A stretch of 54,409 nt of DNA from a bacterium (GTDB lineage Bacteria; Electryoneota; JAOADG01). Positions 19,796 through 37,966 of this stretch are shown one piece after another (positions within the stretch are counted from its first letter, which is position 1; the number at the start of each line of letters is the position of its first letter). The DNA lies in NCBI GenBank assembly GCA_026417415.1, contig JAOADG010000028.1, positions 1 to 54,409 on the forward strand, in the 5' to 3' direction. Made by a program: the position numbers and the translations under genes. The notes beneath the pieces were generated by a model that made no database searches, had not been told where the DNA came from, and saw only the letters and a program-made list of their open reading frames with translations.

Positions 19796-21007
19796 ATGCA
19801 ATTTACACAATTTCGTTGTGATATTATCCATCCTACTCAAGTCAATCAATGGGTTCAACAATATCCTCCTACCTTTCGTTGGATAAGTCGCAACAGCACT
19901 TCTGAACTCATTGGTTACGGAATTGAGATTGAAATTGATTCTATTTTTAAACTACGAAAAGTTCTTCAAGAGCTTTCCAACCAGTATAAGTTTGATTGTC
20001 CCATCTTTGCTTATACTGTTATACCTTTCAATTTAAGTACCAATGGCTTGCCCATTCGTTGGTGTATCCCAAAAGTTCAAATTTGGTTGGATGATCACTC
20101 TCGGGTGATTGTGCTAAATGATCCGCGCTCTTTGGAAATGATTTTAGCAGATTATTCTTGGGAAAGTTTTCCGAATGTTAACACTTATTTTCCTGTACAA
20201 AATTATCCCACGTTTGACACTTGGAAACAACAAATGGATCAAATCCAACACGCCATACATCAAGAAGTGGTAAAAAAAGTTGTGCTTTCAAGACAACAAG
20301 TTTATCCTACTACCCACTATCATCCGAATACCGTTTTTCAACGAATGAAGCGATTGTCCAGCCACAACTACAAGATTCAATTTCAAACATCATCAGGTTT
20401 TTTTCAAAGCGTCACACCTGAATGTGTATTAAAAGTGAATGGAAAAAAATGTTTCACCGATAGCTTAGCAGGATCAAAACCGATCGGAAACAATCCGATG
20501 CAACAACAACAACATACTAATCGTTTAATTCATTCAAGCAAAGAGCAATGGGAGCATTCTTTAGTGAGCGACGGAATTCTCCAATCCCTTCAACCTTATC
20601 TACCTCCGAATGCACAATTCTTCACAGAGAAGTATATTCTTACACTAGATTATATTCAACATCTTTATACGATAATTGAATTTGAAATTTTGGATGAAAC
20701 CGTTTTGGATGCGGTGATTCATTCAATCCACCCAACAGCAGCCATCGCAGGATCTCCTCGTGATACAGCACTCCAAATGTTACAACAACTTCATGAACCA
20801 GATCGTGGTTACTATTGTGGATTGGCTGGTTGGTGTACCTTGGATCAGTTGGAACTTGCAGTCCTAATTCGCTCTGCAATGATTCAAGCAGAAAACACGA
20901 TATTTTATGCAGGGGCTGGCATTGTGGAATCATCGGATGCTACTGCTGAGTGGGAAGAAACAGAATTAAAAATGAGTATCATGAAAAAAATAGTATTGGG
21001 TAATTGA
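19796..21007 (+). CDS. menF: Isochorismate synthase
   Basis: A 403-residue chorismate-utilising enzyme that converts chorismate to isochorismate and commits it to menaquinone. The C-terminal chorismate-binding domain contains 'KKVVLSRQQVYP', 'DSLAGSKPIG', 'SIHPTAAIAGSPRDTAL' and 'AGAGIVESSDATAEWEETE', including the Mg-binding Glu residues of the family. The N-terminal third is diverged. It is the first gene of a long plus-strand array; menD begins 4 bases after its stop. The ribosome site is weak. Confidence 0.93.
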   Translation: MQFTQFRCDIIHPTQVNQWVQQYPPTFRWISRNSTSELIGYGIEIEIDSIFKLRKVLQELSNQYKFDCPIFAYTVIPFNLSTNGLPIRWCIPKVQIWLDDHSRVIVLNDPRSLEMILADYSWESFPNVNTYFPVQNYPTFDTWKQQMDQIQHAIHQEVVKKVVLSRQQVYPTTHYHPNTVFQRMKRLSSHNYKIQFQTSSGFFQSVTPECVLKVNGKKCFTDSLAGSKPIGNNPMQQQQHTNRLIHSSKEQWEHSLVSDGILQSLQPYLPPNAQFFTEKYILTLDYIQHLYTIIEFEILDETVLDAVIHSIHPTAAIAGSPRDTALQMLQQLHEPDRGYYCGLAGWCTLDQLELAVLIRSAMIQAENTIFYAGAGIVESSDATAEWEETELKMSIMKKIVLGN

Positions 21008-21011
21008 TCCA

Positions 21012-22757
21012 ATGCAGTGCATCAATGACAATTGGTTTCGTTCAAATGTTCTTCTTGAACTACTCCATTTGCTTGGTATGAACCATGTGGTCATTTCACC
21101 GGGATCAAGAAATGCACCGCTTTCACATTGCGCACTCCATCATCCCAAACTCACCACCACAGTTCATATTGATGAACGTGGTGCTGGGTTTTTTGCTTTA
21201 GGCATTGCGAAAGGAAGTCAACAGCCGTGTGGTCTTATTTGTACTTCCGGTACTGCTGCTGCAAATTATTTTCCTTCCCTGGTAGAAGCCTATGCTTCTG
21301 ACATTCCATTATTTGTTCTTACTGCCGATCGTCCTGCTAAGTTACAAAATGTAGGTGCTCCACAAACCATTCACCAAGCCCATTTGTATGGACGATATAC
21401 ACCGTTGTTTATCCAAGTTCCAGAACACATGAATGATGAATTGGAGTCGGATCAATGGATAGAACATTTTCTATTCCAGTATCAGCGTTTTTATCCCTAT
21501 TATCCTATCCATTGGAATGTTCCTTTGGACGAACCGTTGTCACCTGTGGTAACGTATTCTGCAGAAGAAGTTCAAAAGAAAAATCACTATGTTCAAAATC
21601 TTTGCGACCGTTTTCAAACTCGCATCGCCAGCATACATCATAACGATCTCTCTGTACGTGGACATTTGGAGTTACCACGTGTTTCTAATGCTTTGATTGT
21701 AACTGGACCGTATTCCGTTCAAACAAAAACTGAACAAGATATTTTTCAAAAAATTGTTGACACCTTGAACTTTCCGGTAGTGTCAGACATTCTTTCAAAT
21801 GCTTTCGGAAATAGTTACGGGTTTCATTACGGTGATCTGTTGTTTAGAACCAATTTTGGAAAAAAGTTAGAAGTGGATTGTATCCTTTGGTTTGGAAACT
21901 ATCCCACTTCTAAGGTGTTCCAAGCGTTGTTGAAACGAAGCAAATGGGTAATTCGTATTTCAAGATCTGAAAAAACTGTTGATCCGGATCATTGTGTCCG
22001 AATACATTTTCATTGCACCTATCATCAGTTTTATGAATTCATTCATCCGCAATCGTTAAATATGAAAACTCATGCTTTATTACACAAATTGCGTCAGTTA
22101 GACAATAAAGTGGAGCATGGGTTGCAACATGATTTTGATCAACTTCCAGTAGAAGCCCAAGTCATTCATCTTTTATCTTCGCAAATTCCCAAAGAGATCA
22201 ATATCTTTGTTGGTAATTCACTCATTATGCGGTGGATGGATTGGTTTTTTAAAAGAAATGCATCTTGTCAATTCTATGGGAACAAAGGAGTCAATGGAAT
22301 TGATGGCAACATTGCCACTTTGGCAGGTCTTGCAAAAGCCACACAAAAACAGACCATTGGGATAATAGGAGATTTGGCTTTTTGTCATGATGTCAATAGT
22401 TTATTGCTTCTTTCAAATTTACCGATTATTCTTTTCATTCTAAACAATTCTGGTGGTGGTATTTTTCATTTATTACCGAGTTGTCGTGATATGAACGAAT
22501 ACGATACTCTTTATTCATCTGCAAAGCAAAGTTTTGAAACCTTGCAAGGAACTCCTCAAATTGTTTCTATTGAAGATCTTTGCAAGGGATTTCATATTGA
22601 ATATCAAACGCTGGATTTATCTTCTCATGCTTTTTCTTCTATCCTGAATAGAAGTGTATCGCAACCACTGGTTGTAGAATTGAAAACCAATCGTTACGAT
22701 TCATATTCACAATTGAAACGTATTTTTCAAAAATTGAAAACAGTGGATTGTTTATGA
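21012..22757 (+). CDS. menD: SEPHCHC synthase (MenD)
   Basis: A 581-residue thiamine-diphosphate enzyme that joins isochorismate and 2-oxoglutarate into 2-succinyl-5-enolpyruvyl-6-hydroxy-3-cyclohexene-1-carboxylate. Signature sequences are 'VISPGSRNAPL', 'HIDERGAGFFALGIAKGS', 'TSGTAAANYFPSLVEA', 'LTADRPAKLQNVGAPQT' and the cofactor segment 'GDLAFCHDVNSLLLL' to 'NNSGGGIFHLLP'. Length is normal. menH overlaps its stop by four bases. Confidence 0.96.
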   Translation: MQCINDNWFRSNVLLELLHLLGMNHVVISPGSRNAPLSHCALHHPKLTTTVHIDERGAGFFALGIAKGSQQPCGLICTSGTAAANYFPSLVEAYASDIPLFVLTADRPAKLQNVGAPQTIHQAHLYGRYTPLFIQVPEHMNDELESDQWIEHFLFQYQRFYPYYPIHWNVPLDEPLSPVVTYSAEEVQKKNHYVQNLCDRFQTRIASIHHNDLSVRGHLELPRVSNALIVTGPYSVQTKTEQDIFQKIVDTLNFPVVSDILSNAFGNSYGFHYGDLLFRTNFGKKLEVDCILWFGNYPTSKVFQALLKRSKWVIRISRSEKTVDPDHCVRIHFHCTYHQFYEFIHPQSLNMKTHALLHKLRQLDNKVEHGLQHDFDQLPVEAQVIHLLSSQIPKEINIFVGNSLIMRWMDWFFKRNASCQFYGNKGVNGIDGNIATLAGLAKATQKQTIGIIGDLAFCHDVNSLLLLSNLPIILFILNNSGGGIFHLLPSCRDMNEYDTLYSSAKQSFETLQGTPQIVSIEDLCKGFHIEYQTLDLSSHAFSSILNRSVSQPLVVELKTNRYDSYSQLKRIFQKLKTVDCL

Positions 22758-23542
22758 GCATTTACATTCATACCCAACGCTATGGTCCAAAAGACAAACC
22801 GCCACTCGTTATGTTGCACGGGTTTGCGGGTACAGGTCATTATTGGTCACCGCATTTTGAAAAACTGGTCCCTTACTTTCATTTGATTGTACCCGACTTA
22901 CCGGGACATGGAAAAAGCGAAATTAGCGATGGCAATTATTCTTTTGAAGAGGCAGCAAACCTTTTATTGGATGAAATTCTATCCATTGAAAGTCGTCCTT
23001 TAGGACTTATTGGATATTCTATGGGTAGCCGTATTGGAATGTACTTTTTAACTCGCACAGCAGAACGATTTTCACGAGCACTTTTCATCAGTGGAGCCAT
23101 TGGAATTCAAGATCAAACTCAACGAGAACAACGTTTGAAAGATGATATACTACTAGCGCAACAGATACAAGAAAAAGGAATAGAATGGTTTAGAGAATAT
23201 TGGTGCAATTTACCCATTTTTGCATCCAGAAAACGGGATGATATTCTAAAACATTTGGAAACTTTGTGGAGTGAACAGAATAAAGATCAATTGGCTTTAG
23301 CACTTAAAATATTTTCTGTAGGCAATCAAAATTACCTTTTGCCTCAATTGCAAACCAATACCATTCCGATTATTTATGCTGCTGGTGAGTTGGATGAAAA
23401 ATATGTAGAACTTGGAAAAGAATTATCTTCACAAATTCCAAAATTCTATTTGGAAGTGGTCAATGATTGTGGACACGACATTCCGAGCGAAAATCCACAA
23501 TGGTTTCAATCTAGTGTCATTCGTTTTTTTATTAAGAAATAA
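22754..23542 (+). CDS. menH: SHCHC synthase (MenH), alpha/beta hydrolase
   Basis: A 262-residue alpha/beta hydrolase that removes pyruvate from the MenD product. The oxyanion-hole 'MLHGFAGTGHYW', 'PDLPGHGKSE', the nucleophile elbow 'GYSMGSR' and the C-terminal 'CGHDIPSENP' with the catalytic His are visible. I chose the ATG that overlaps the menD stop (ATGA); a TTG two codons upstream is less likely. Similar hydrolases act on other substrates, but the position between menD and menB settles the role. Confidence 0.92.
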   Translation: MSIYIHTQRYGPKDKPPLVMLHGFAGTGHYWSPHFEKLVPYFHLIVPDLPGHGKSEISDGNYSFEEAANLLLDEILSIESRPLGLIGYSMGSRIGMYFLTRTAERFSRALFISGAIGIQDQTQREQRLKDDILLAQQIQEKGIEWFREYWCNLPIFASRKRDDILKHLETLWSEQNKDQLALALKIFSVGNQNYLLPQLQTNTIPIIYAAGELDEKYVELGKELSSQIPKFYLEVVNDCGHDIPSENPQWFQSSVIRFFIKK

Positions 23543-23557
23543 ATAAAGGAAAGGAAT

Positions 23558-24376
23558 ATGAACATCCCTTGGCAAGAAGTGAAAACTTATCAAGATATTC
23601 TCTATCATAAATGGGAAGGTATTGCGAAAATTACCATCAATCGTCCGGAAGTTCGCAACGCTTTTCGTCCTCAAACCATTTTTGAAATGCAAGATGCGTT
23701 TTTAGATGCACGTGAAGATCCAGAGGTTGGTGTCGTTATCCTCACCGGTGCTGGCGATAAAGCATTTTGTAGTGGTGGAGATCAGCGCATACGTAGCAAT
23801 GCTGGATATAAAGACAATAGCGGTGTTCCTAGATTGAATGTTTTGGATTTACAAAAACAGATTCGTTCTTTACCAAAACCGGTAATTGCGATGGTTGCTG
23901 GATATGCTATTGGTGGAGGCCATGTTTTGCATGTCGTTTGCGATTTAACCATCGCAGCAGACAATGCCATTTTTGGTCAAACTGGTCCACGGGTAGGGAG
24001 TTTTGATGGAGGGTTTGGAGTAGGTGTGCTTTCCCGAATTGTCGGTATGAAAAAAGCAAAAGAGATGTGGTTTCTTTGTCGTCAATACAACGCACAACAG
24101 GCCTTAGAAATGGGTTTGGTGAATGCAGTGGTCCCCTTAGCAGAATTAGAAAAAACTACAGTGGAGTGGTGTAAAGAAATTTTAGCACTATCTCCTATCG
24201 CCCTTCGTTGCTTAAAATCTGCTTTCAATGCAGAAACGGATGGACAAGCCGGAATTCAAGAATTGGCAGGGAATGCAACGCTATTATACTATATGAGTGA
24301 AGAGGGACAAGAAGGAAAGAATGCATTTTTGGAAAAACGAAAACCAAATTTCAAAAAATTTCCTCGACTCCCTTAA
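23558..24376 (+). CDS. menB: 1,4-Dihydroxy-2-naphthoyl-CoA synthase
   Basis: A 272-residue crotonase-fold enzyme that closes the naphthoquinone ring from o-succinylbenzoyl-CoA. Highly conserved: '[16 protein letters not shown]', 'AFCSGGDQ', '[18 protein letters not shown]', '[15 protein letters not shown]' and '[18 protein letters not shown]'. Length is normal. A ribosome site AAAGGAAAGG lies 5 bases before the ATG. Confidence 0.97.
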
Positions 24377-24403
24377 TTTGATTTTTTGTAAAGGACTTAA
24401 ACA

Positions 24404-25294
24404 ACGTTTACTCAATATACACCTTGGATACTCGCCAGCCGCCCGAAAACATTGGTGGCGGCTGTTATCCCGGTGTGGATAGGTTTTGCCTTAGCCACAC
24501 ATGAAACTTCGTTTCAATGGATTTGGGTTATTCCAATTCTGATTGCGACTTTACTTATCCAAATTGGTACCAATATCTCAAACGATTACTTTGATTGGAA
24601 AAAAGGTGCTGATACTGCTGAACGAATTGGACCCACTCGTGTAACCCAAAGCGGTTTATTATCACCGAATCAAGTGAAATTAGGTTTCATCATTGCATTT
24701 GCACTTGCTATTGTAGTTGGGATCCCTTTAGCATTACGTGGTGGATGGATCATTGTATTCATCGGTTTATCTTCAGTGTTATTGGGAATTTTTTATACTG
24801 CCGGTCCATTTGCAATTGCATATCGCGGATTAAGTGAAATCTTTGTCATTTTGTATTTTGGAATTGTTGCGGTTACAGGAACTGAATATCTGTTGACTCT
24901 TAGTTGGGATACACTATCTATCTGGTGTGGTATTCCAACAGGTCTATTATCTACTTCGCTGCTTATTATGAACAACATTCGTGATATTCCAACCGATCAA
25001 AAAAGTGGTAAGTGGACACTTCCAGCACGCTTCGGACTTCGCTTTGGTTTAATGGAGTTTGCTTTCTCTTTGATCCTCGCCATTGGAATTGCTGTTGGAA
25101 TTGTGTGGATTCATTTTCAACTGCTGTATCTATTTACTTTATTCCCACTTTACATATACACCTATTTAATCATTCGTCGTGCTTACTTAGCACGAAGTCG
25201 TGAAGAGTATTTGGATTTACTTTCCATTACCGCAAAGTACCAATGGTTGTTTGGTATTTTGTTTGGATCGGCAATTTTACTTGGTACTCAATGA
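24404..25294 (+). CDS. menA: 1,4-Dihydroxy-2-naphthoate polyprenyltransferase, probable ACG start
   Basis: An integral-membrane prenyltransferase of the UbiA superfamily that attaches the polyprenyl tail to DHNA. The first Asp motif lies in 'QIGTNISNDYFDWKKGAD' and the second in 'NNIRDIPTDQKSGKWTL'; about eight membrane segments are apparent. The first conventional start, TTG at 24452, would remove the conserved 'WILASRPKTL' that opens MenA proteins. That sequence is encoded in frame just upstream. The frame has no ATG, GTG or TTG there, but an ACG at 24404 lies 8 bases after AAGGA and gives an N-terminus of normal length (296 aa). Either a rare ACG start or a base error is likely. Identity is firm; only the start is uncertain. 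Confidence 0.9.
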   Translation, partial: TFTQYTPWILASRPKTLVAAVIPVWIGFALATHETSFQWIWVIPILIATLLIQIGTNISNDYFDWKKGADTAERIGPTRVTQSGLLSPNQVKLGFIIAFALAIVVGIPLALRGGWIIVFIGLSSVLLGIFYTAGPFAIAYRGLSEIFVILYFGIVAVTGTEYLLTLSWDTLSIWCGIPTGLLSTSLLIMNNIRDIPTDQKSGKWTLPARFGLRFGLMEFAFSLILAIGIAVGIVWIHFQLLYLFTLFPLYIYTYLIIRRAYLARSREEYLDLLSITAKYQWLFGILFGSAILLGTQ

Positions 25295-26343
25295 AATTCA
25301 GGTGGAAACGAGTTCCTCTTTATTTCTGGCAATTCCCGAATAGAACCACAGTCCCTGCTTTTGTCCGTGAAGTTCTTTTTCTTCAATTAGAAGATGAAAG
25401 TGGAATGGTTAGTATCGGAGAAATTGCACCGTTGCCCAATTGGGGAACAGAAAGCATAGAAGAAGCGGAGCAACTATTAGAGCGGGTTTCTACTCTTCTA
25501 CCAAAAACCAATGTTCCAGCGTTTGGTTTTGAAACGCTTGTTTCTGAACTCTCTTTATCAACTTATCCAGCGACTGCATTCGGATTAAGTATTCTGTTTG
25601 AATTGTATTCCATTCGCAAACTTCAAACAGATGTTGAATCGTATTCCACTTCTGCACCAATTGCTGCTACCATTTTTGAGTTTGACCTGAAAACCATTCA
25701 TAATACTATCGCATTTTGGAACACGTTGGGTTGTCATACCATTAAACTTAAAGTCCATTCAAAGCCCTCCACACAATTGTTTGAACAATTGTTTAACTTG
25801 GTAGAAAGTTATCCAAATAACCTATTTCGATTGGATTTCAATGAACGTTGGGATTTTCATTCTACCCAAGCGTTTCTTGTTCATTATTCTCATCCCAATA
25901 TCCAATATCTTGAACAACCCTTAAAGCGTTCGCAGATTCACGAACTTTTGAAACTTTCCAATTTTGGCTCTATTCCAATTGCAGTAGATGAATCGGCTAC
26001 AAACTTCAAAGAAATTGAGTTTTGGCTAAAAGAGAGCAATGGTATTATCGTAATGAAACCTTGTACCATGGGATCTATTCAACTGATTCGTAAATGGTTA
26101 GAAACGAATTCTGGTTATCATTCTCGGATTGTTTTGAGTTCTGGAATGGACTCGATTCTCTCTGCGTTTTGGTATGTTTGGATCCAACACTCATTTCAAA
26201 CGCTTCATCAACCTTCTGGTATCGGAACTTTTTTCTATACTTCATCACCAATCCAAATTCCTTACCGAATAGAAAAGGGAATTTTACACTTTTCGGGAAA
26301 TTGGTTTCGGGATTTTCATTTTCCTTCTGAAGTATTTCTGTGA
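25291..26343 (+). CDS. menC: o-Succinylbenzoate synthase
   Basis: A 350-residue enolase-superfamily enzyme that dehydrates SHCHC to o-succinylbenzoate. Catalytic and metal-binding residues are visible: the Lys pair in 'IKLKVHSK', Asp in 'FRLDFNERW', Glu in 'QYLEQPLKRSQ', Asp in 'IAVDESATN' and Lys in 'IIVMKPCTMGS'. I chose the ATG overlapping the menA stop (ATGA); the longer open frame upstream lies inside menA. Confidence 0.93.
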   Translation: MKFRWKRVPLYFWQFPNRTTVPAFVREVLFLQLEDESGMVSIGEIAPLPNWGTESIEEAEQLLERVSTLLPKTNVPAFGFETLVSELSLSTYPATAFGLSILFELYSIRKLQTDVESYSTSAPIAATIFEFDLKTIHNTIAFWNTLGCHTIKLKVHSKPSTQLFEQLFNLVESYPNNLFRLDFNERWDFHSTQAFLVHYSHPNIQYLEQPLKRSQIHELLKLSNFGSIPIAVDESATNFKEIEFWLKESNGIIVMKPCTMGSIQLIRKWLETNSGYHSRIVLSSGMDSILSAFWYVWIQHSFQTLHQPSGIGTFFYTSSPIQIPYRIEKGILHFSGNWFRDFHFPSEVFL

Positions 26344-27815
26344 GTAAGAATATGCCTTTTCCTCTGGAACAATGGGTTAGTAAAAAACCAGATGAAATTT
26401 TTCTTTATACCGAAGAACGTTCTTATCGTTTTGCAGAATTTCTTAAAAAAATTTTTTCTTATGCCTACTTCTTTGATTCTTTGAAACATCCTTACCTTCG
26501 TGTAATGTTTGTGGCAGAACCCACCATTGAATTGCTTGCTGCTGTAATTGCCGTATGGCGTGTAAATGGATGTGTTTTGATATTGCCGAGTTCTCTAACT
26601 CATTGGGAATTGGAAATCATTCTCTCTCGTTACTCTGCGAATTGTATCATAACTGATGAACACGCATTCCATCATTACACTGTTCTTCAACAAAAGAATA
26701 CTTATCTATTCAGTGAAATGTTAAATAGGAAGTGTGAAGGTATTCTCTCCTCATTTCAATTGGATCAAATGCCATATTCACCTTGTTTAATGATCTTGAC
26801 CAGTGGAACCACAGGTACACCCAAATTGGTCAAACACAGTTGGACTGCGTTAATGAATCATGCGGAAATGTCTGCTTGTCATTTGCAGTTGAGTGCTAAT
26901 GATTGTTGGTTATTATCTCTTCCGTTGCATCACATTGGCGGAATTGCAAGTGTATTCAAGAGTTTCTACCGTGGTTTATCGCTTGCTTGGGGTTTACCTT
27001 TTTCTACTCACCTTACCATCAATCGGTTAGAAACAGCGCCCATCACAAGGTTATCAATGGTTCCAACAATGCTTCAAGATTTGACCAATGAGTATCCATC
27101 ATTTTGGGAAAAGCGGTTTACTTCCATTCTATTAGGTGGTGGCTATATTCCCAAACAACTGGTAGAACAAGATCAACGTGTGCTCGCAACTTATGGTTTA
27201 TCAGAAGCAGGTTCACAGGTAACCACTGTTCCACCCAATTCAGCATTATCTTTGCGTCGTACCTGTGGTTTGCCTTTGCCGAAGGTAACGATTCAAATTC
27301 GTGATGAAAAACAAGAAGTGTTGAATCCAAATCAAGAAGGAGAAATTTGGATTCAAACACCTGCAATGGCATTAGGTTATGAATCCAATGAAATTGAGAC
27401 ACAATTGACTTTTCAAGGAGAATGGTTACGTACCAATGATATTGGTTATGTGGATGAACAAGGTGCGTTGACTATTGTCTCACGCATTTCTGATAGAATT
27501 GTTACTGGTGGTAAAAAAGTGGATGCACGTGAAGTTGAAATGGTACTTTTGAATTTTCCAGATGTTCAAGAAGTCGCAATTGTCCCTGTACCTTCTAAGC
27601 GTTGGGGCTTTGAAGTGGGTGCTGCTGTTGTTCTGAAGGGTGTAATAGAAAACCCACAACAACAAATTGAAAATTATTTACGCAAACAATTATCTTCGTA
27701 CAAAATACCTAAACAGTGGCTTTTTCTTTCAAACTTACCAAAACTTACGAATGGTAAATTGGATAAAAGTACCATCGTTTCAATGTTTGAAGGGAAAAGA
27801 GGATCATCGGTTTGA
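26340..27815 (+). CDS. menE: o-Succinylbenzoate-CoA ligase
   Basis: A 491-residue adenylate-forming enzyme that activates o-succinylbenzoate with ATP and CoA. The P-loop-like 'MILTSGTTGTPKLVKHSW', 'ATYGLSEAGSQVTTVPP', the hinge region 'WLRTNDIGYVDEQGALTIVS' and the C-terminal catalytic Lys in 'LPKLTNGKLDKSTI' are clear. A GTG start overlaps the menC stop (GTGA); an ATG four codons later is an alternative. Confidence 0.94.
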   Translation: MSKNMPFPLEQWVSKKPDEIFLYTEERSYRFAEFLKKIFSYAYFFDSLKHPYLRVMFVAEPTIELLAAVIAVWRVNGCVLILPSSLTHWELEIILSRYSANCIITDEHAFHHYTVLQQKNTYLFSEMLNRKCEGILSSFQLDQMPYSPCLMILTSGTTGTPKLVKHSWTALMNHAEMSACHLQLSANDCWLLSLPLHHIGGIASVFKSFYRGLSLAWGLPFSTHLTINRLETAPITRLSMVPTMLQDLTNEYPSFWEKRFTSILLGGGYIPKQLVEQDQRVLATYGLSEAGSQVTTVPPNSALSLRRTCGLPLPKVTIQIRDEKQEVLNPNQEGEIWIQTPAMALGYESNEIETQLTFQGEWLRTNDIGYVDEQGALTIVSRISDRIVTGGKKVDAREVEMVLLNFPDVQEVAIVPVPSKRWGFEVGAAVVLKGVIENPQQQIENYLRKQLSSYKIPKQWLFLSNLPKLTNGKLDKSTIVSMFEGKRGSSV

Positions 27816-27926
27816 TTATGGAAAAAATATCCATAGGATTTATTTTCTATTTCGGTATGATTTTGTATTTTTGAATTCGTATTATTATACCTTAACATAC
27901 TTTTTTGTTTGATTGAATTTGTTTCT
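27816..27926. other. Short gap between the men and aro blocks
   Basis: The 111-base, very AT-rich spacer between menE and aroF is the longest in the men-aro array. No terminator hairpin is visible, so read-through is possible. TATTTTTG at about 27869 resembles a Bacteroidetes-type -7 element, but no matching upstream element is seen. Confidence 0.3.
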
Positions 27927-28784
27927 ATGTCTTTACCTGAAATCAATTCTCGTGAACGGTTTAAGCCCATTTTATTTACCAACGATGCCTCCAATGAGTC
28001 GTACTACCGTATTTCTTTAGGCAATCTTCAATTCGGTGGTGATGAAATTGTTCTCATTGCAGGACCTTGTGCAGTTGAAAGCGAAGAACAGATTCTTCTA
28101 AGTGCAACTCTTGCAAAAGAAGTGGGTGTTAAAATGTTGCGTGGTGGAATTTTTAAGCCACGAACTTCACCCTATTCGTTTCAAGGGCTCGGTATGCCTG
28201 CACTTGAGTGGTTTAGAAAAGCAGCTGATAAGGTGTCTTTGCCGATTGTCAGTGAAGTGATGGATGTGGAACAAGTGGATCAATTTGAACCTTACGTAGA
28301 TGTATTGCAAATTGGTTCACGAAACATGCAAAATTTTAGTTTGTTGAAACGAGTAGGCCAATCGCACCGACCCATCTTACTAAAGCGGGGAATGTCGGCA
28401 ACCTATTGGGAACTAATCAATGCAGCGATGTATATCGCAGAAGAAGGAAACACTCAAATTATCCTATGTGAACGTGGGATACGTACCTTTTCAGATTTTA
28501 CCCGAAATACCTTTGATGTTGCCATTATACCAAAACTGAAACAAGAATGTAAACTTCCTGTAATTGCTGATCCGAGCCACGCTAGCGGTGATAGCAAACT
28601 GGTGATCCCGCTTGCATTATCTGCCATTGCTGCGGGTGCTGACGGGATTATGGTTGAATTTCACCCAAATCCTCAACAAGCCAAATCCGATGCAAAACAA
28701 GCATTATCTCCTGAACAATTAAAGACGTTAGCGTTACAATTGAGATCGTTAGCGGTTGCCATGGGACGTCGGTTCGGTGAATGA
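27927..28784 (+). CDS. aroF: DAHP synthase, KDO8P-synthase-like type
   Basis: A 285-residue class I-beta 3-deoxy-D-arabino-heptulosonate 7-phosphate synthase, first step of the shikimate pathway (PEP plus erythrose 4-phosphate). Conserved: 'IAGPCAVESEEQI', 'LRGGIFKPRTSPYSFQG', 'LQIGSRNMQNF', 'LLKRGMSAT', 'ILCERGIRTF' and 'PVIADPSHASGD'. It has no chorismate mutase or ACT regulatory domain, so feedback control is not visible. I chose the ATG at 27927; a TTG six codons upstream is possible. It opens the aro block after menE. Confidence 0.94.
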   Translation: MSLPEINSRERFKPILFTNDASNESYYRISLGNLQFGGDEIVLIAGPCAVESEEQILLSATLAKEVGVKMLRGGIFKPRTSPYSFQGLGMPALEWFRKAADKVSLPIVSEVMDVEQVDQFEPYVDVLQIGSRNMQNFSLLKRVGQSHRPILLKRGMSATYWELINAAMYIAEEGNTQIILCERGIRTFSDFTRNTFDVAIIPKLKQECKLPVIADPSHASGDSKLVIPLALSAIAAGADGIMVEFHPNPQQAKSDAKQALSPEQLKTLALQLRSLAVAMGRRFGE

Positions 28785-30076
28785 ATGATGCGAATGGAAT
28801 CCGACTATATCCAGCAAAACGACCAATCTTAGGGACAACTGTTGTACCTTCAGATAAATCGGTAACCCACCGCCGCTTGCTGATTGCTGCGATAAACCAC
28901 GTTGAAAACCAAATTCTTCTTCAATCGCCCGCAAACGATGTCTTTAGCACCATTACAGCACTACAAGCATTAGGGATCCACCTTCATTTAACGACGCAAC
29001 AATACAAAACAAAGGTTATAGTACCCGCAAAGAAACGCTTTGTCTCGCCTGCTCATCCAATTGATTGTCAAAACTCGGGAACCACCGCTCGTTTACTCTG
29101 CGGATTGTTATGTAGCCAGAACGTTACTGTTCAATTGATTGGGGATGACTCGCTAACCAAACGACCTATGGAACGAGTTGCCATACCTTTACAAAAAATG
29201 GGTGCAAAAATAACTACAAGCAATGGCACTTTACCCATTCATATTCAACCTGCATCCTTACACGGAATCTCTTATCCACTTCCAGTTGCCAGTGCTCAAG
29301 TCAAATCGGCAATTTTATTAGCAGGACTGTTTGCAGATGGGATTACCACAGTGATTGAACGTTTTCAAACCCGAGATCATACTGAACGGCTACTTCAAAT
29401 CGCTCCACAAACCGTGGGAGATGGTACAGCCCTACAAATTGACCATAACATCCATTTACCTGATTGTTCGGGTGAAGTTCCGTTAGATATTTCCAATCTC
29501 GCTTTTTGGATTGCAGCAGCAATTTTGGTAAACGGTTCTTGTTTGGAGTGGAAAAATGTATTGCTCAATCCGACACGTATTGCGTATCTCAAATTGTTGA
29601 AAGCGCAAGGTGCTCACTTGGATTGGGAAGTAACCCATACACAGTTAGGCGAACCGATAGGTTGGCTGGAAGTACGTTCAGGAGGCAATTTTCATTTTCG
29701 AATCGATTCTGAACTCCTTCCTTTGGTGATAGATGAAATTCCCATTTTAGCCGTCCTTGCTGCAGCAACACAAGGCAGTTTTGAATTGCACTCTGCAAAG
29801 GAATTACGTACCAAAGAAAGTGACCGAATCAAAAGCATTGTTGACAATTTACGACGAATGAATATTGAAGTAGAAGAGTATTTAGATGGTTTTCAATTTG
29901 AAGCAAAAGATCCTTTGCGAGGTGCGAAACTTTCATCCTTCCAAGATCATCGGATTGCAATGGCGTTTGCGGTTGCAGCATTGGTTGCCAAAGGTGAAAC
30001 ATGGATACAAGATGCTCAGGTTGCTTCGGTTTCGGATCGTATATTCTTTGAACAGCTCTTTTTGTATTTAAGGTAA
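28781..30076 (+). CDS. aroA: 3-Phosphoshikimate 1-carboxyvinyltransferase (EPSP synthase)
   Basis: A 431-residue EPSP synthase that adds enolpyruvate from PEP to shikimate 3-phosphate. Visible are 'VPSDKSVTHRRLLIAA', 'DCQNSGTTARLLCGLL', 'GDDSLTKRPMERV', 'SAQVKSAILLAGL', 'AKELRTKESDRIKSI' and 'FQDHRIAMAFAVAAL'. 'NSGTTAR' replaces the usual NAGTAxR, a small change close to the PEP/glyphosate site. The start overlaps the aroF stop (ATGA). Confidence 0.95.
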   Translation: MNDANGIRLYPAKRPILGTTVVPSDKSVTHRRLLIAAINHVENQILLQSPANDVFSTITALQALGIHLHLTTQQYKTKVIVPAKKRFVSPAHPIDCQNSGTTARLLCGLLCSQNVTVQLIGDDSLTKRPMERVAIPLQKMGAKITTSNGTLPIHIQPASLHGISYPLPVASAQVKSAILLAGLFADGITTVIERFQTRDHTERLLQIAPQTVGDGTALQIDHNIHLPDCSGEVPLDISNLAFWIAAAILVNGSCLEWKNVLLNPTRIAYLKLLKAQGAHLDWEVTHTQLGEPIGWLEVRSGGNFHFRIDSELLPLVIDEIPILAVLAAATQGSFELHSAKELRTKESDRIKSIVDNLRRMNIEVEEYLDGFQFEAKDPLRGAKLSSFQDHRIAMAFAVAALVAKGETWIQDAQVASVSDRIFFEQLFLYLR

Positions 30077-30082
30077 AAGGAC

Positions 30083-31144
30083 ATGATCAAACTTGCACTC
30101 ATTGGTTTCTCTATAACGCACTCTTTATCGCCTCGTATCCATTCCATTGCTATGGAGCATTTGAACATTGAGGGAACGTATGAATTGATTGATCTGAATA
30201 CAAATGAAGAAAATGATCTTTCCATTCACTTGGAACAAAAACCTTCTAACGAAGAAACACAAATCGCCGATATTCTTGTTTTAGAAGCCATCAAACGTCC
30301 TAAACGCACTAGTTCTACACACAATGATAAGCAGTTTTTGTATTCAGGAAAGTTACATTACTTTTTCAACCTTATAAAACCTTATTTATCGCAAGATTAT
30401 TGGGGTTTCAATATCACCTCACCTTTGAAAGAATACATACCCTTAGCCATTAAGCATATCAAAAATGAACACGCTTCCCTTAACCATATTGCTTCAAACA
30501 CGCTGTTTCGATCAAATGGTCTTTGGACTTGTGTAAATACGGATATTTATGGAGCCCAACGAACCATCCAACAGTTACAAATCTCGGAAAATGACACCAT
30601 CTGCATATTAGGGGGTGGTGGAACCGCAAAGACACTTCTTTACTCTCTCGTTCGCAGCAATAAGTATCAACGAATCTACGTTTGTTTGCGTGACGAAACC
30701 CAACTGTCCCCTTTCATTCAAATTATCCCTGTGCTTATTACTATTCCTATTTATTTTTGTTCAAGAGCACCTCGAGATTTGGTCCTTAATACTTACAAAA
30801 ATTTTGCACGTATTTTTACTTTCCCTTGGAAAAAACGTGTGGAAGTAGCCCAACAATCCAGCGTCATCATCAATACGACAACCTTAGGTTTGCATGGTGA
30901 ATCACCATTACCACTTGATGAAGATTATCCTTCTGTTCGGGCATATTTTGATATTTTGTATTATCCTTATGAAACGGCGCTCCTAAAGAAGTTCAAAAAT
31001 GATGGAAAAATGGTGTTGAATGGAATAGATTGGTTTATTGAACAAGCCAATGAATCTTTTCACTATTGGACAGGAAAGCATTTTAATAAAACCATTATCA
31101 AGAAATTTTCAAAAGAATATGCTCAGTTGGCTAACCGCAGGTGA
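30083..31144 (+). CDS. aroE: Shikimate dehydrogenase, enlarged form
   Basis: A 353-residue NADP-dependent dehydrogenase for 3-dehydroshikimate, about 70 residues longer than usual. The substrate site 'GFSITHSLSPRIHS', the catalytic Lys116 in 'NITSPLKE', Asp154 in 'VNTDIYG', the nucleotide-binding 'ICILGGGGTAKTLLYSLV' and 'VIINTTTLGLHGESPLP' are present. An insertion of about 45 residues (roughly 45-90, rich in charged residues) interrupts the N-terminal domain before the catalytic Lys, and the middle of the NADP domain is diverged. It lies 6 bases after aroA, and aroC starts 26 bases before its end. The context makes the function secure despite the divergence. Confidence 0.87.
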   Translation: MIKLALIGFSITHSLSPRIHSIAMEHLNIEGTYELIDLNTNEENDLSIHLEQKPSNEETQIADILVLEAIKRPKRTSSTHNDKQFLYSGKLHYFFNLIKPYLSQDYWGFNITSPLKEYIPLAIKHIKNEHASLNHIASNTLFRSNGLWTCVNTDIYGAQRTIQQLQISENDTICILGGGGTAKTLLYSLVRSNKYQRIYVCLRDETQLSPFIQIIPVLITIPIYFCSRAPRDLVLNTYKNFARIFTFPWKKRVEVAQQSSVIINTTTLGLHGESPLPLDEDYPSVRAYFDILYYPYETALLKKFKNDGKMVLNGIDWFIEQANESFHYWTGKHFNKTIIKKFSKEYAQLANRR

Positions 31145-32285
31145 ATCGCACGGCGAACAATTAACGGGGATTGTGGACGGAATTCCTGCCCATTTGCCGC
31201 TTGATGAAGAAGACATCAACTATGAATTGCGACGTCGTCAATTCGGTTATGGACGTGGCGATCGAATGTCTATTGAAAAAGACGAAATTCGAATCACTGG
31301 TGGTGTTCGTTATGGACTTACTACCGGCGCTCCAATTTCATTGGTGTTGTACAATAGAGATTATGAGCAGTGGAAAGATAAAGTGAGCATCACTCCCACA
31401 GAACATCCTTCTGCGCCACTTACTGCACCACGGCCGGGTCATAGCGATTTTGCTGGTGCAGTGAAATACAACCAAAACGATTTAAGGAATGTTATTGAGC
31501 GTGCCAGTGCGCGTGAAACTGCAATGCGCACTGCTTTAGGTGCTATTGCTAAAAAACTCTTGTCTGTGTTTGGAATTCAAATCGGTAGCCATGTATTGCA
31601 AATAGGATCTATCCAGACGTCTCATTCGTTTTCTCCATTAGAAGTTATTCAAGCATGTAAGATAGATCCGACTCCTTTACGCTGTTTGGATCGAGAAGCG
31701 GAACAAAAGATGATGCAAGCCATTGACGAAGCTAAATCTCAAGGTGACACTTTAGGTGGAATCATTGAGGTGGTAGCAATCAATGTTCCTATAGGATTGG
31801 GTTCTTTTGTACAATGGTATAGACGATTGGATGGTCGGATTGCACAAGCCATACTTTCCATTCACGCTATCAAAGCCGTTGGGTTTGGATCTCAAGTGTT
31901 TAGTTCTTCTCCCTTAATGGGCTCACAATTTCATGATGAAATCCATGGGAAAGATGATCGCCATATCTACCGTGCTACTAATTCTGCTGGTGGCATTGAA
32001 GGTGGAATGAGCAATGGTGAGCCCATTGTAGTACGTTTAATGATGAAACCATTGGCTAGTTTAGGACAACCCCTTGCAACCATTGATTTAGAAACTGGTG
32101 AAAAACGTCAAGCCCTCCGCGAACGCTCTGATGTTTGTGCTGTACCTGCTGCTGGTGTGGTCGCAGAAGCCATGGTAGCACTTGTACTTGCGGATGCATT
32201 GGTAGAAAAAGTAGGTGGTGATAGCATTGAAGAAATGAAAGCCCATTTTGAAAGTTGGAGAAGCAAATGGGACACCTCTATTTAA
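31119..32285 (+). CDS. aroC: Chorismate synthase
   Basis: A 388-residue FMN-dependent enzyme that makes chorismate. Conserved: 'LTAGESHGEQLTGIVDG', 'FGYGRGDRMSIEKDE', 'PRPGHSDFAGAVKY', 'RASARETAMRTALGAIAK' and 'SNGEPIVVRLMMKP'. I chose the ATG at 31119, one codon before the conserved 'LSWLTAGESHG'; the open frame further upstream lies inside aroE. It overlaps aroE by 26 bases and the next gene by 19, which implies coupled translation. Confidence 0.96.
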   Translation: MLSWLTAGESHGEQLTGIVDGIPAHLPLDEEDINYELRRRQFGYGRGDRMSIEKDEIRITGGVRYGLTTGAPISLVLYNRDYEQWKDKVSITPTEHPSAPLTAPRPGHSDFAGAVKYNQNDLRNVIERASARETAMRTALGAIAKKLLSVFGIQIGSHVLQIGSIQTSHSFSPLEVIQACKIDPTPLRCLDREAEQKMMQAIDEAKSQGDTLGGIIEVVAINVPIGLGSFVQWYRRLDGRIAQAILSIHAIKAVGFGSQVFSSSPLMGSQFHDEIHGKDDRHIYRATNSAGGIEGGMSNGEPIVVRLMMKPLASLGQPLATIDLETGEKRQALRERSDVCAVPAAGVVAEAMVALVLADALVEKVGGDSIEEMKAHFESWRSKWDTSI

Positions 32286-33910
32286 CTGGAATCAGTGGCT
32301 CAGGCAAGACCACGATCGGAAGAATCCTCGCAGAAAGGTGGAAGGTGCCTTTTTATGATGTAGATGAAACCATTGAACAAACATATCAAAGTTCTATCCA
32401 AAAAATTGTTCAAAATTACGGATGGATTCAATTTAGACTTCGCGAACGACAAGTACTTTTGCATCTATCACGACAGTTGAGTGGTGTCGTTGCATTGGGT
32501 GGAAGTACCATTCTGTATCCAAACAATTATGCCCTTGTGCGCAACAGTGGCAAATTGTTGTATCTGCAAGTATCTCCCTCTGTTATTGCACAACGTGTTT
32601 TTCAATCCAATAAACTCCGTTTTCTTGAATGCGATACCTTTCAAGAAACATTCCATACTGCACAAATGCTGCATCGTGAACGGAACGCACTTTTTTCTCA
32701 ATCCGATTTTATTATCACCATCCAAGACGAAAAAGAAAGTGCAGAACAAACGGTTCAACGCATCCTCAATCTTGTTGGTAATGAATTGGATGGCCTGTTT
32801 TCTTCAAACTTTGATCTTCTCAAGCGAACAAGTTCTGAACATACTTTGCATCATCATACTGAGTATTATTGGTGTGATGGTGGTTTGAAAGATGTAGTTT
32901 TTCAATTGCTTGAACGTTTACAACCCTCTACCGTTTTTATCATTACAGATGAAACCGTAGATGCATTGTATTCCTCGGTACTTTTGCAATCTATCCCTAA
33001 ATCAGTGTTCTCAAAAAAAATTGTGGTCCCTTCTGGTGAATCTTCAAAATCATGGGAGATAGTAGATCGCTCCATTACTGATATACTGCAACGTCCGATG
33101 GATCGCAACAGTTTGTTCATTGGATTGGGAGGTGGTGTAGTTACTGACCTCTGTGGTTTTATTGCTTCAATCTTACTCCGAGGAATTCCATGGGTCGCTA
33201 TTCCAACAACCATTATCGGAATGGTTGATGCTGCCATAGGTGGAAAAACTGCCATTAATGTTCCATTAGGAAAAAATTTAGTGGGTACCTTTCACCCACC
33301 GATAGCAGTCGTATTTGATCGTTCACTTGCAACAACACTTTCCTTAAAAGAAATTCAATGTGGTTGGGGTGAAGTGATCAAATATGGTTTGTTAAGTGGT
33401 GGATCGTTGTGGAATTCTATCAAGGATTCAGATTTTACAACTTTGCCCAATGCAGAGATACTTGCTCAATGTTTTGAATACAAACGTACCATCGTAGAGT
33501 TGGATCTATTAGAAAAAGGTGAACGGAAATACTTAAACCTTGGTCATACCAGTGGACATGCATTGGAATCAGCATTAGGATTTCAGCAGCTAAGCCATGG
33601 TGAGGCCGTATTGTGGGGTTTGGGTGTTGTTGCAAAATTATCCAAATTGTTGCGCTCTTTTCCAGAACATGAATATGATGAAGTTAGATCCATTCTTTCA
33701 AAGTTTGCTTTGCCAGCCGTGGATTGTGAAGTAGAAGATCTATTCAAATTTCTCCAATATGATAAAAAAAATTTAGGGGGTGTATCACGATGGATCCTTT
33801 TGGATACCATTGGCAAACCAATTTTTGATTGTCCAATTCCTGTGGAAACGGTGACCCCTATATTGATTGAACATTCACATTTTCTCCGCTTAGGAAAGGT
33901 TATCCAATGA
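32267..33910 (+). CDS. aroKB: Fused shikimate kinase and 3-dehydroquinate synthase
   Basis: A 547-residue bifunctional protein. Residues 1 to about 172 are shikimate kinase: P-loop 'GISGSGKTTIGRILAERW', 'FYDVDETIE' and 'VALGGSTILY'. Residues about 200-547 are NAD- and zinc-dependent dehydroquinate synthase: 'PSGESSKSWE', 'GLGGGVVTDLCGFIAS', 'VAIPTTIIGMVDAAIGGKT', 'GWGEVIKYGLLSGG', 'LGHTSGHALE' and 'LSHGEAVLWG', which supply the metal ligands. It therefore provides steps 2 and 5 of the shikimate pathway in one chain. The start overlaps aroC by 19 bases, and aroQ overlaps its stop by four. Confidence 0.95.
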   Translation: MGHLYLTGISGSGKTTIGRILAERWKVPFYDVDETIEQTYQSSIQKIVQNYGWIQFRLRERQVLLHLSRQLSGVVALGGSTILYPNNYALVRNSGKLLYLQVSPSVIAQRVFQSNKLRFLECDTFQETFHTAQMLHRERNALFSQSDFIITIQDEKESAEQTVQRILNLVGNELDGLFSSNFDLLKRTSSEHTLHHHTEYYWCDGGLKDVVFQLLERLQPSTVFIITDETVDALYSSVLLQSIPKSVFSKKIVVPSGESSKSWEIVDRSITDILQRPMDRNSLFIGLGGGVVTDLCGFIASILLRGIPWVAIPTTIIGMVDAAIGGKTAINVPLGKNLVGTFHPPIAVVFDRSLATTLSLKEIQCGWGEVIKYGLLSGGSLWNSIKDSDFTTLPNAEILAQCFEYKRTIVELDLLEKGERKYLNLGHTSGHALESALGFQQLSHGEAVLWGLGVVAKLSKLLRSFPEHEYDEVRSILSKFALPAVDCEVEDLFKFLQYDKKNLGGVSRWILLDTIGKPIFDCPIPVETVTPILIEHSHFLRLGKVIQ

Positions 33911-34782
33911 AACCAACCATCTGGGTAATTCAAGGACCAAACTTAAACTTATTGGGTGAACGTGAACCTCAATTGTATGGAACGAAAACTCTAAATGAAT
34001 TGGAAACTGAACTCAATCTTCATGCTGAACAGTTGGGCTACTCCTTACAACATTTTCAGAGCAACCACGAAGGTTCACTCATTGATAAGTTGCAAGAAAT
34101 TCGGAAAAGTGCTGTTGGTGCGCTTCTCAATGGAGGCGGTTATACCCACAGCAGCATTGCACTCGCGGATACTGTAAAAGCCATCCAAATCCCTGTGGTA
34201 GAAGTACACCTAACAGATACTGGAAAACGTGAGTTTTTTCGTAAACAATCGTATTTATCCAATGTGGCAATTGCTACCTTTCAAGGAGAAGGATTTCAAA
34301 GTTATCATAAAGCTTTGGATTTTCTTGTCAAGTATATCCAAGGTGAAGTAGAGCGAGTGCTTCCTTTTCATCAATCATTCACAGTAGAAGAGTTGATCTG
34401 GTTGGATGATACCGATGCTGCAGGAATTCTATTTAATGCACATCTGTTTCGCATTTGTCATCGTGTTTATGAAAAATGGATGAACCATATTGGCTTTCCA
34501 ATTGGTAAACTTTTAGAACAACGGAATTGGGGAATACCCATCGCACGATTAGAAGGAGATTTTATTAGACCTTTACGTACAGGAATGAAAATTTTCGTTT
34601 CCCTTCAATTGATTCGTTTGGGTGAACGATCATTTACCTTAGGATATCGTCTATATGATGAACTACAAGTACTTTATGCCACTGCAAGTTCAACACACGT
34701 TGCCACAGATGCATTGGGAGGAAAAGCCGATTTTCCAAAAGAATTCATTGATGCACTAAAACATTTTTTTTCATCATGCTGA
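33907..34782 (+). CDS. aroQ: Fused type II 3-dehydroquinase and hotdog thioesterase (probable DHNA-CoA hydrolase)
   Basis: A 291-residue fusion. Residues 1-145 are type II dehydroquinase: 'IQGPNLNLLGEREPQLYG' with catalytic Tyr24, 'SNHEGSLIDKLQE', 'LNGGGYTHSSIALADTV', His101 in 'VEVHLTD' and Arg112. Residues about 155-291 are a 4-hydroxybenzoyl-CoA-thioesterase-type hotdog domain: the catalytic Asp170 lies in 'LDDTDAAGILFNAHLFRICH', followed by 'ARLEGDFIRPLRTGMKI', 'SFTLGYRLYDE' and 'THVATDALGGKADFP'. This is the pattern of DHNA-CoA thioesterases (MenI). It would supply both dehydroquinase and the one menaquinone step otherwise missing from the men-aro array. The hotdog substrate is inferred from motif and context. 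Confidence 0.9.
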   Translation: MKPTIWVIQGPNLNLLGEREPQLYGTKTLNELETELNLHAEQLGYSLQHFQSNHEGSLIDKLQEIRKSAVGALLNGGGYTHSSIALADTVKAIQIPVVEVHLTDTGKREFFRKQSYLSNVAIATFQGEGFQSYHKALDFLVKYIQGEVERVLPFHQSFTVEELIWLDDTDAAGILFNAHLFRICHRVYEKWMNHIGFPIGKLLEQRNWGIPIARLEGDFIRPLRTGMKIFVSLQLIRLGERSFTLGYRLYDELQVLYATASSTHVATDALGGKADFPKEFIDALKHFFSSC

Positions 34783-36214: not shown

Positions 36215-37966
36215 ATGGCGACCAAGAAAACGGCTATAAAGAAAAAAGAAGCGAAAACAAAACAAACGAAAACCGCCAAAAGAACAAATGCTGTAGGGAA
36301 AAAAACGACTGCGAAAAAAGCAGCGAAACCTTCACTAAAAACTGTCAAGACAACCGAAAAAAAGTCACCGAAAAAAGTTTCTCAAAAAACAACTGCAAAA
36401 ACTTTAGTGAAAAAAACTGCTGCTAAGAAAAGTACAACGGTCAAACGCGTTACCAAGTCGCCTGCTAAAACCACTCAAACAGCAACGAAAAAAAGAAAAG
36501 CGACTTCCACCAAAGCCGTTTCTTCTAAACCGAAAGCAAAAGCATTAACCAAAAAAGTAACCAAACGCACCACGCTGAAATCTAAGCCGACTCCTAAACC
36601 CAAAAAAGTAGTACAGAAAAAGAAAACTGCAAAAATTTCTGAAAAAATAAAACCTATTAAAAAAGTTACCAAAGGTGCACAGGTTAAGAAAACCACAAAA
36701 GCAAAAGCAGTTGTTAAACCTGTAAAAAAAGTAGCAAAACTGAAAAAAACTACAGTACCCAAAAAAGCAGTTCAAAAAATTACGAAACCGAAAAAAGTCA
36801 CATTCAAGGTGTTGAAGGTTGCAAAGAAAAAACCTCAACCCACGAAATCAAAACGAGTAACCAAAAAAGCGGTATCACCTAAACCGAAAAAAATTCAAGC
36901 AAAGAAAAAAGTTGCAGTTAAACCACCAAAGAAAAAAGTAGTTGCCCCAACGAAACGTCCGAAAGCAAAAACTGTCAAGAAACCTAAAATTCAGAAACGA
37001 GCCAAAGTTGTAGCAAAACCTATAGCAAAAAAGAAAGTTGTTCAAGCAAAAAAAGCAAAGGTTGTCGCGAAACCTAAGAAAAAACTGGTTCAGAAGGTTA
37101 AGAAACGCTTAGCCAAAGTTGCACCGAAGAAAAAAGTTGCGAAACTGAAAAAAGCTGCACCTAAACGAGCCGCAAAAGCACCAACGAAAAAAGTAACACG
37201 CAAACCCAAAAAAGTGGTTCAACCACAAGTCAAAAAACGAGCAAAAAAGGAAGCGGTTCCAAAGAAAAAACTGATCGCTAAAAAGCCAGAAAAATCTAAA
37301 CCGAAAAAAGCGATTGGAAAAAAGAAAGCGGTTCTTGAGCCACCAAAGAAAAAGAAGACCGCAATTTTAGAAAAGAAATCTGTACGCATAGAGCCACGTA
37401 AAAAAGAAATAGCCAGAGCAAAACTCAAAAAAGAGATCATTTCATCTCTTGAGCCGCTTACAAAAAAAGCATTAACTCTTGAAAAGCAAGTTATTGAAAA
37501 AGAATTAAAAGAGGGACTTGCCACAAAATTTATCCATGAACATAAAACGTTTAGCAATGTCGTTCCTCAAACAGAGAAGAAGCCACGGAGCAAGAAGCGC
37601 AAAGAGCTTCCGTTTGATGAGGAATTGGATATAGACATTCTTCAATCAGCAGGAATTCCAGTACTTCATGACATTGAAGAAACCCCAAAAGTTCATCATC
37701 GTCGTCACCGTCAGCCCAAGGTTGCCGAAGCAGCACCGGGGTCGGGCATTTTCTGCAAGCATTGTGGTGTAGAATTAACGATATTGGAAAAGCCATACCT
37801 AAGTAAACAACCCGATTTAGAAGGAATGTACCACTGGTCTTGTTTTCGAGAATTGGTTAAAGAACACCAACGTGCAGCACAAATTATGATTGACGAATCA
37901 AGCATCTCTGCGGGCATCATTATCCCCGGTGGAGGTGAACACGACGGTTCAGATGTCGGTGATTAA
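36215..37966 (+). CDS. Lysine-rich histone H1-like protein with C-terminal zinc-finger-like motif
   Basis: A 583-residue protein. Residues 1 to about 400 are low-complexity and more than one third Lys, with Ala, Thr, Val and Pro in short repeats such as 'KKVAKLKK' and 'KPKKVV', the composition of eukaryotic histone H1 tails and bacterial H1-like proteins. About 400-500 becomes acidic and basic mixed. The C-terminal part carries Cys514-x2-Cys517 and His540-x2-Cys543 ('CKHCGVEL' and 'YHWSCFRELV'), a probable zinc site, then an acidic tail. DNA or RNA binding or chromosome compaction is likely but inferred. It starts behind GGAGTAG, follows manB closely and overlaps hpnC by 14 bases. Confidence 0.85.
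   Translation: MATKKTAIKKKEAKTKQTKTAKRTNAVGKKTTAKKAAKPSLKTVKTTEKKSPKKVSQKTTAKTLVKKTAAKKSTTVKRVTKSPAKTTQTATKKRKATSTKAVSSKPKAKALTKKVTKRTTLKSKPTPKPKKVVQKKKTAKISEKIKPIKKVTKGAQVKKTTKAKAVVKPVKKVAKLKKTTVPKKAVQKITKPKKVTFKVLKVAKKKPQPTKSKRVTKKAVSPKPKKIQAKKKVAVKPPKKKVVAPTKRPKAKTVKKPKIQKRAKVVAKPIAKKKVVQAKKAKVVAKPKKKLVQKVKKRLAKVAPKKKVAKLKKAAPKRAAKAPTKKVTRKPKKVVQPQVKKRAKKEAVPKKKLIAKKPEKSKPKKAIGKKKAVLEPPKKKKTAILEKKSVRIEPRKKEIARAKLKKEIISSLEPLTKKALTLEKQVIEKELKEGLATKFIHEHKTFSNVVPQTEKKPRSKKRKELPFDEELDIDILQSAGIPVLHDIEETPKVHHRRHRQPKVAEAAPGSGIFCKHCGVELTILEKPYLSKQPDLEGMYHWSCFRELVKEHQRAAQIMIDESSISAGIIIPGGGEHDGSDVGD

Follow-up and report, generated by a model that had tools for sequence, protein, structure and literature searches.

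Why should a 3-dehydroquinase, an early enzyme of the shikimate pathway, carry a thioesterase at its C-terminus, and could this thioesterase be the missing MenI of a neighboring menaquinone operon? The question is raised by an intact open reading frame at positions 33907–34782 (+) of contig JAOADG010000028.1 from a bacterium of the phylum Electryoneota (the whole 54,409-nucleotide stretch is hereafter called the window). The reading frame starts with ATG and encodes 291 aa, whereas AroQ, the class II 3-dehydroquinase, is normally a single domain of about 145–150 aa. Pfam recognizes DHquinase_II (PF01220) at residues 5–140 (33919–34326, +; E 3e-49; profile positions 2–137 of 138), followed by 4HBT_2 (PF13279) at residues 165–284 (E 7e-17) and 4HBT (PF03061) at residues 173–252 (E 1.8e-6), all above the curated cut-offs. 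The first-pass annotation of the C-terminal half as a 4-hydroxybenzoyl-CoA-thioesterase-type domain is thus borne out, as is its assignment of the catalytic aspartate: 'DDTDAAGILF' begins at residue 167, which makes Asp170 (the second D of DTD; codon at 34414–34416, +) the presumed catalytic residue. The same annotation had placed the thioesterase at residues 150–291. The domain stands, but its boundary does not; the proper start is near residue 159 (34381–34779, +), and residues from about 145 or 146 to 158 (34342–34380, +) form a poorly conserved linker.

Are both halves likely to be working enzymes? The two domains were aligned separately, with 23 sequences for AroQ and 12 for the hotdog domain. 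The AroQ half retains all of the invariant columns of its alignment, among them the active-site residues of the family (Asn12, Arg19, Tyr24, Asn75, Glu99, His101, Arg108, and Arg112). With a full-length domain and these residues, it is predicted to be a genuine class II 3-dehydroquinase. Asp170 is invariant in all 12 of the hotdog domains. The full-length AlphaFold model consists of two folded domains (pLDDT 85) joined by a linker with low confidence at residues 154–157, and the placement of the domains relative to each other is not confidently predicted (pTM 0.58).

The window comes from a draft genome of 40 contigs, and the loss of a stop codon between two genes through an assembly or sequencing error could, in principle, create such a protein. 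This explanation is hardly credible, and in practice refuted, because a second genus of the same family (genome G001) encodes a protein of the same architecture and the same length of 291 aa, with 66% identity, at the matching position of its operon. The identity between the two proteins is 68% in AroQ and 66% in the thioesterase but only 41% in the linker. Since synonymous sites are saturated between the two genomes, differences per codon position were counted instead of dN/dS; they amount to 0.27/0.23/0.68 at positions 1/2/3 in AroQ and 0.33/0.15/0.63 in the thioesterase. This dominance of the third position is as expected for two functional domains. The recurrence of the two-domain protein in a second genus, with both halves about equally conserved, indicates at the sequence level that the fusion is real and not a chance read-through.

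How widespread is the fusion? The search of other genomes proposed in the first-pass annotation covered 386 genomes, and, among the matches listed (down to E ~2e-28), a two-domain match was found in two of them, the window genome and the second genus; a strong match to both domains would be expected among the first entries of such a list. A contig search with the whole fusion as the query returned AroQ relatives, none of which carried a hotdog domain on the AroQ reading frame. The long AroQ reading frames from other phyla that were inspected have partners other than a hotdog domain. One ORF type of ~350–380 aa consists of AroQ followed by an alpha/beta hydrolase (BD-FAE/Abhydrolase_3; L086:7983-9128, L097:7989-9116, L110:7866-8912, and, by length only, L107), the hosts being an Acidimicrobiia MAG and unclassified bacteria. 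An AroK::AroQ fusion is found in an Oscillospiraceae MAG (L032:7512-8441).

The gene neighborhood shows which step is missing. The men genes occupy positions 19796–27815 upstream of the fusion, on the same strand, and start with menF (isochorismate synthase; 19796–21007, +; TIGR00543 at 216.7 bits, just below the cut-off of 224.75). There follow, with matches above the cut-offs, menD (21012–22757, +; TIGR00173), menH (22748–23542, +; TIGR03695), menB (23558–24376, +; TIGR01929 and NF005637), which makes the proposed substrate, 1,4-dihydroxy-2-naphthoyl-CoA (DHNA-CoA), and menA (24404–25294, +; TIGR00751; start uncertain), which uses the proposed product, DHNA. The set continues with menC (25243–26343, +) and menE (26340–27815, +), whose best matches are o-succinylbenzoate synthase (NCBIfam and Pfam) and o-succinylbenzoate-CoA ligase (NCBIfam), respectively. 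Divergently from this operon lies a ubiE/menG methyltransferase gene (19033–19734, −), assigned by reading of the sequence and by a homologue (55% identity) at the matching place in the second genus. As the first-pass annotation had claimed, there is no separate thioesterase among these upstream men genes, and the DHNA-CoA thioesterase is the sole missing step of the set.

The aro genes follow on the same strand: an aroF-type DAHP synthase gene (27909–28784, +; TIGR01361 above the cut-off); aroA (28781–30076, +), assigned by reading of the sequence and by its location next to aroF and aroE, which is kept in relatives; a divergent aroE (30083–31144, +; PF08501); aroC (31119–32285, +), assigned by reading of the sequence and by conserved order; and a gene for an AroK::AroB fusion of 551 aa (32255–33910, +; PF01202, PF01761, and PF24621), the stop codon of which is overlapped by 4 nt by the start codon of aroQ::menI. 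In this single-strand run (menF, D, H, B, A, C, E, aroF, A, E, C, K::B, Q::menI), neighboring genes overlap or are less than 30 nt apart, except for 93 nt between menE and aroF. Scans for promoters and terminators gave results no better than those from shuffled sequences. In the second genus, the order is menF, a menD::menH fusion, menB, A, C, E, aroF, and aroA on one contig and aroE, C, K, B, and aroQ::menI on another.

Several other features of this region were observed. The conserved N-terminus of MenA (WILASRPKTL) is encoded upstream of the first ATG, GTG, or TTG codon (TTG at 24452), and a stop codon interrupts the reading frame at 24398; between 24377 and 24460, the sole well-placed start is an ACG codon at 24404, behind an AAAGGA motif. 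Either this rare start codon is used, or the sequence contains an error. AroE (353 aa) is longer than usual, and Pfam recognizes only the start of its N-terminal domain. AroK and AroB, one protein in the window, are encoded by separate genes in the second genus; conversely, MenD and MenH, which have overlapping but separate genes in the window, are fused there into one protein of 880 aa (L149:6796-9435, −). Downstream of the cluster, positions 36215–37966 encode a protein of 583 aa without a Pfam match, in which Lys-rich KK/AK repeats make up most of the sequence and the C-terminus contains Cys.

The remainder of the genome contains no obvious substitute for either half. No dehydroquinase other than the fused AroQ was found in the genome, nor was a type I dehydroquinase (AroD) or an MqnA/D enzyme of the futalosine route. 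Because the men set has no other thioesterase and no MqnA/D or AroD was found, both halves of the fusion would fill needed roles. The first-pass annotation had named a separate MenI gene at another place in the genome as a finding that would refute a menaquinone role. None appeared: a search with the 4HBT models found two other hotdog proteins, one YciA-like and one YbgC-like, neither of them in the men cluster, and TIGR00369, the model of the E. coli YdiI type of MenI, had no match above its cut-off. These two proteins could act on DHNA-CoA.

Does the hotdog domain itself resemble a DHNA-CoA thioesterase? When the domain is searched alone, the top PDB match is the DHNA-CoA thioesterase Slr0204 (4k00; E 6.5e-13), and a profile of the 12 hotdog sequences, the kind of comparison suggested in the first-pass annotation, gives 91 bits for 4k00, 72 for the cyanobacterial 2hx5, 58 for the next structure, and 51 for YbgC. 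The structure prediction suggested alongside it agrees: the AlphaFold model of the domain (pLDDT 89) has 4k00 as its best Foldseek match, with an rmsd of 1.5 and TM scores of 0.84/0.88. In a tree that contains several long branches and has moderate support, the 12 men-type domains join 4k00 (89/85), while the YbgC proteins form a separate clade that includes the genome's own YbgC-like paralogue and S. aureus 6fdg (99/90). The motif [LIV]P[ILV]x[HR]xxxDF is present in 12/12 members, in 4k00, and in 2hx5 and is absent from five other hotdog proteins; it was picked after the alignments had been viewed and is, thus, descriptive. Its conserved His (LPIVH) is replaced by Arg in both fusion proteins, and the identity between the hotdog domain and Slr0204 is only about 25%. 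Hotdog thioesterases are known to switch substrate readily.

The domain might, alternatively, be a general or other aryl- or acyl-CoA thioesterase, of the YbgC/FadM or 4-hydroxybenzoyl-CoA kind, with a housekeeping role and only incidental proximity to the men genes. The curated models lean this way, as the Pfam and NCBIfam matches of the window domain are to generic 4HBT and YbgC/FadM families only. The match to YbgC/FadM TIGR00051 (35 bits) is below its curated cut-off of 68.7 bits. No NCBIfam MenI model matches the window domain: neither TIGR00369 nor MenI_Staph NF047424 (cut-off 225 bits) matches it, though the latter has weak matches, all below the cut-off, in 9 of the 12 aligned hotdog sequences (best E 8.7e-10). 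Against a general role, no YbgC or 4HBT structure is as close to the domain as 4k00 and 2hx5 are, and the distribution of the domain in the phylum follows MenB.

In a sister family (f3), AroQ is joined to AroB instead of to the hotdog domain, and unfused orthologues of the latter (36–43% identity) lie beside or near menE, within ~2.1 kb, in 10/10 loci, with no other likely gene in between in eight of them. A sample of 39 genomes of the phylum contains 13 with a strong MenB match and 26 without. The men-type hotdog domain is present in 12 of the former and none of the latter (Fisher p 3e-9, with kinship ignored), an association that reflects few independent events, as the MenB-positive genomes fall in two families. 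In the single exception, a MenB-positive genome of 80% completeness, the domain is missing from the assembly, and the contig with the men genes stops directly behind menB. Among 20 genomes of other phyla, there were two weak hotdog matches, neither near recognizable men genes. A weak relative in G058 (L152) sits among unrelated genes. Given the position near menE in the sister family and the absence of the domain from all 26 MenB-negative genomes, a general thioesterase appears distinctly unlikely.

Could the YbgC-like paralogue (G000:C38:769797-770309) be the real MenI instead, leaving the fused domain with another function? Its best PDB match is S. aureus 6fdg (E 1.8e-16), which is called a DHNA thioesterase, and its best NCBIfam match is MenI_Staph, albeit at 75 bits, where the cut-off is 225. 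The gene, however, adjoins accA rather than men genes, and the paralogue, which served as the control, occurs in 37 of the 39 phylum genomes irrespective of MenB. Furthermore, the activity of the 6fdg protein given in the consulted passages of its paper is the hydrolysis of stearoyl- and crotonyl-CoA, not DHNA-CoA (PMC8918352). The paralogue is, accordingly, unlikely to be a dedicated DHNA-CoA enzyme, and the combination of that role with a different function for the fused domain is highly improbable.

We therefore favor the reading, with a probability of about 0.87, that the gene encodes a two-domain AroQ-MenI, that its hotdog half hydrolyzes DHNA-CoA and so fills the missing men step, and that the fusion was born within an operon. 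The MenI role suggested in the first-pass annotation is supported by the best profile and predicted fold match to 4k00, the proximity to menE, and the tracking of MenB. In fold, catalytic Asp, tree grouping, and men linkage, the predicted domain agrees with the Slr0204/4HBT type of MenI. From these features we infer the substrate and the activity as follows. The AroQ half would make 3-dehydroshikimate for chorismate. MenB would make DHNA-CoA, which the hotdog half would hydrolyze to DHNA with Asp170 as the catalytic carboxylate, and MenA would prenylate the DHNA released.

How might the fusion have arisen, and of what use might it be? In the ancestor of the family, the men and aro operons may have become adjacent, and menI, once beside menE as in the sister family, may have joined in frame behind aroQ; this direction of events is a guess from analogy with the sister family. 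The first-pass annotation considered the joining of an early shikimate enzyme to a late menaquinone enzyme to make sense in this cluster. Direct channelling between the halves would make little sense chemically, as AroQ acts at a much earlier point of the pathway. A device that channels or scaffolds, coupling chorismate supply to menaquinone, would be compatible with the MenI assignment, and it would fit the retention of the two-domain form across two genera at 66% identity and the closely packed same-strand run of aro and men genes. We nevertheless consider it unlikely: the AroQ and MenI reactions are not consecutive, the sister family manages without the fusion, and the linker is short and poorly conserved, with no confident placement of the domains. 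The dodecamer is the usual form of class II dehydroquinases, and the tetramer is that of 4HBT-type thioesterases; AroQ-MenI might, consequently, form a large particle that gathers aro and men enzymes or ties menaquinone output to shikimate flux, a speculative and rather improbable role. An operon-born gene fusion is more likely than a channelling device, and it is more simply explained by co-expression from the joined aro-men operon; we infer that joint expression is the benefit.

What is new here? Both enzymes are of known kinds, and the novelty lies in their joining. The first-pass annotation was not aware of a described AroQ-MenI fusion, and none was found in the open-access literature searched; a cross-pathway fusion of a shikimate and a menaquinone enzyme appears to be undescribed. 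The fusion would supply the missing menaquinone step in this lineage, and it offers a strong handle for naming a hotdog subfamily to which the curated models give a YbgC-like label. No other step of the men pathway is as variable as the one at DHNA-CoA, for which several types of hotdog protein, only distantly related to one another, are used. A group of orthologues that lies next to menE, tracks MenB, and is close to Slr0204 should, therefore, be useful for annotation.

Among the closest known systems is Slr0204 of Synechocystis (PDB 4k00), which acts in phylloquinone synthesis. It shares with the fusion the 4HBT-type hotdog fold, the DTD catalytic motif, the CHxx[YW]E and LPxxH/RxxxDF motifs, and the men pathway context; apart from the low identity and the His-to-Arg difference mentioned above, it differs in being a single-domain protein. 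Compared with the usual class II AroQ (PF01220), AroQ-MenI has the same full domain and invariant residues but an extra hotdog domain. Another is MenY-MenI, a HAD hydrolase (PF08282) fused to MenI that was predicted in gut bacteria (PMC4746308). Both proteins have two domains, end in a MenI thioesterase, and belong to a men context. The partner in MenY-MenI, however, is predicted to replace MenH and thus stays within the menaquinone pathway (PMC4746308), whereas that in AroQ-MenI comes from the shikimate pathway, and MenH is present separately. PHYLLO, the MenF-MenD-MenC-MenH fusion of plants and algae (PMC6189191), likewise joins enzymes of naphthoquinone synthesis, but it contains men enzymes only, with neither a shikimate enzyme nor a thioesterase. 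AroB::AroQ fusions of ~520 aa occur in sister families f3 and f8 (L123:6612-8165, checked with Pfam; L124:6422-7996, L125:4877-6457, and L126:7339-8931, recognized by length and the position of AroQ). These and the AroK::AroB and AroK::AroQ fusions of related and other bacteria stay within one pathway and include no thioesterase, whereas AroQ-MenI would join two.
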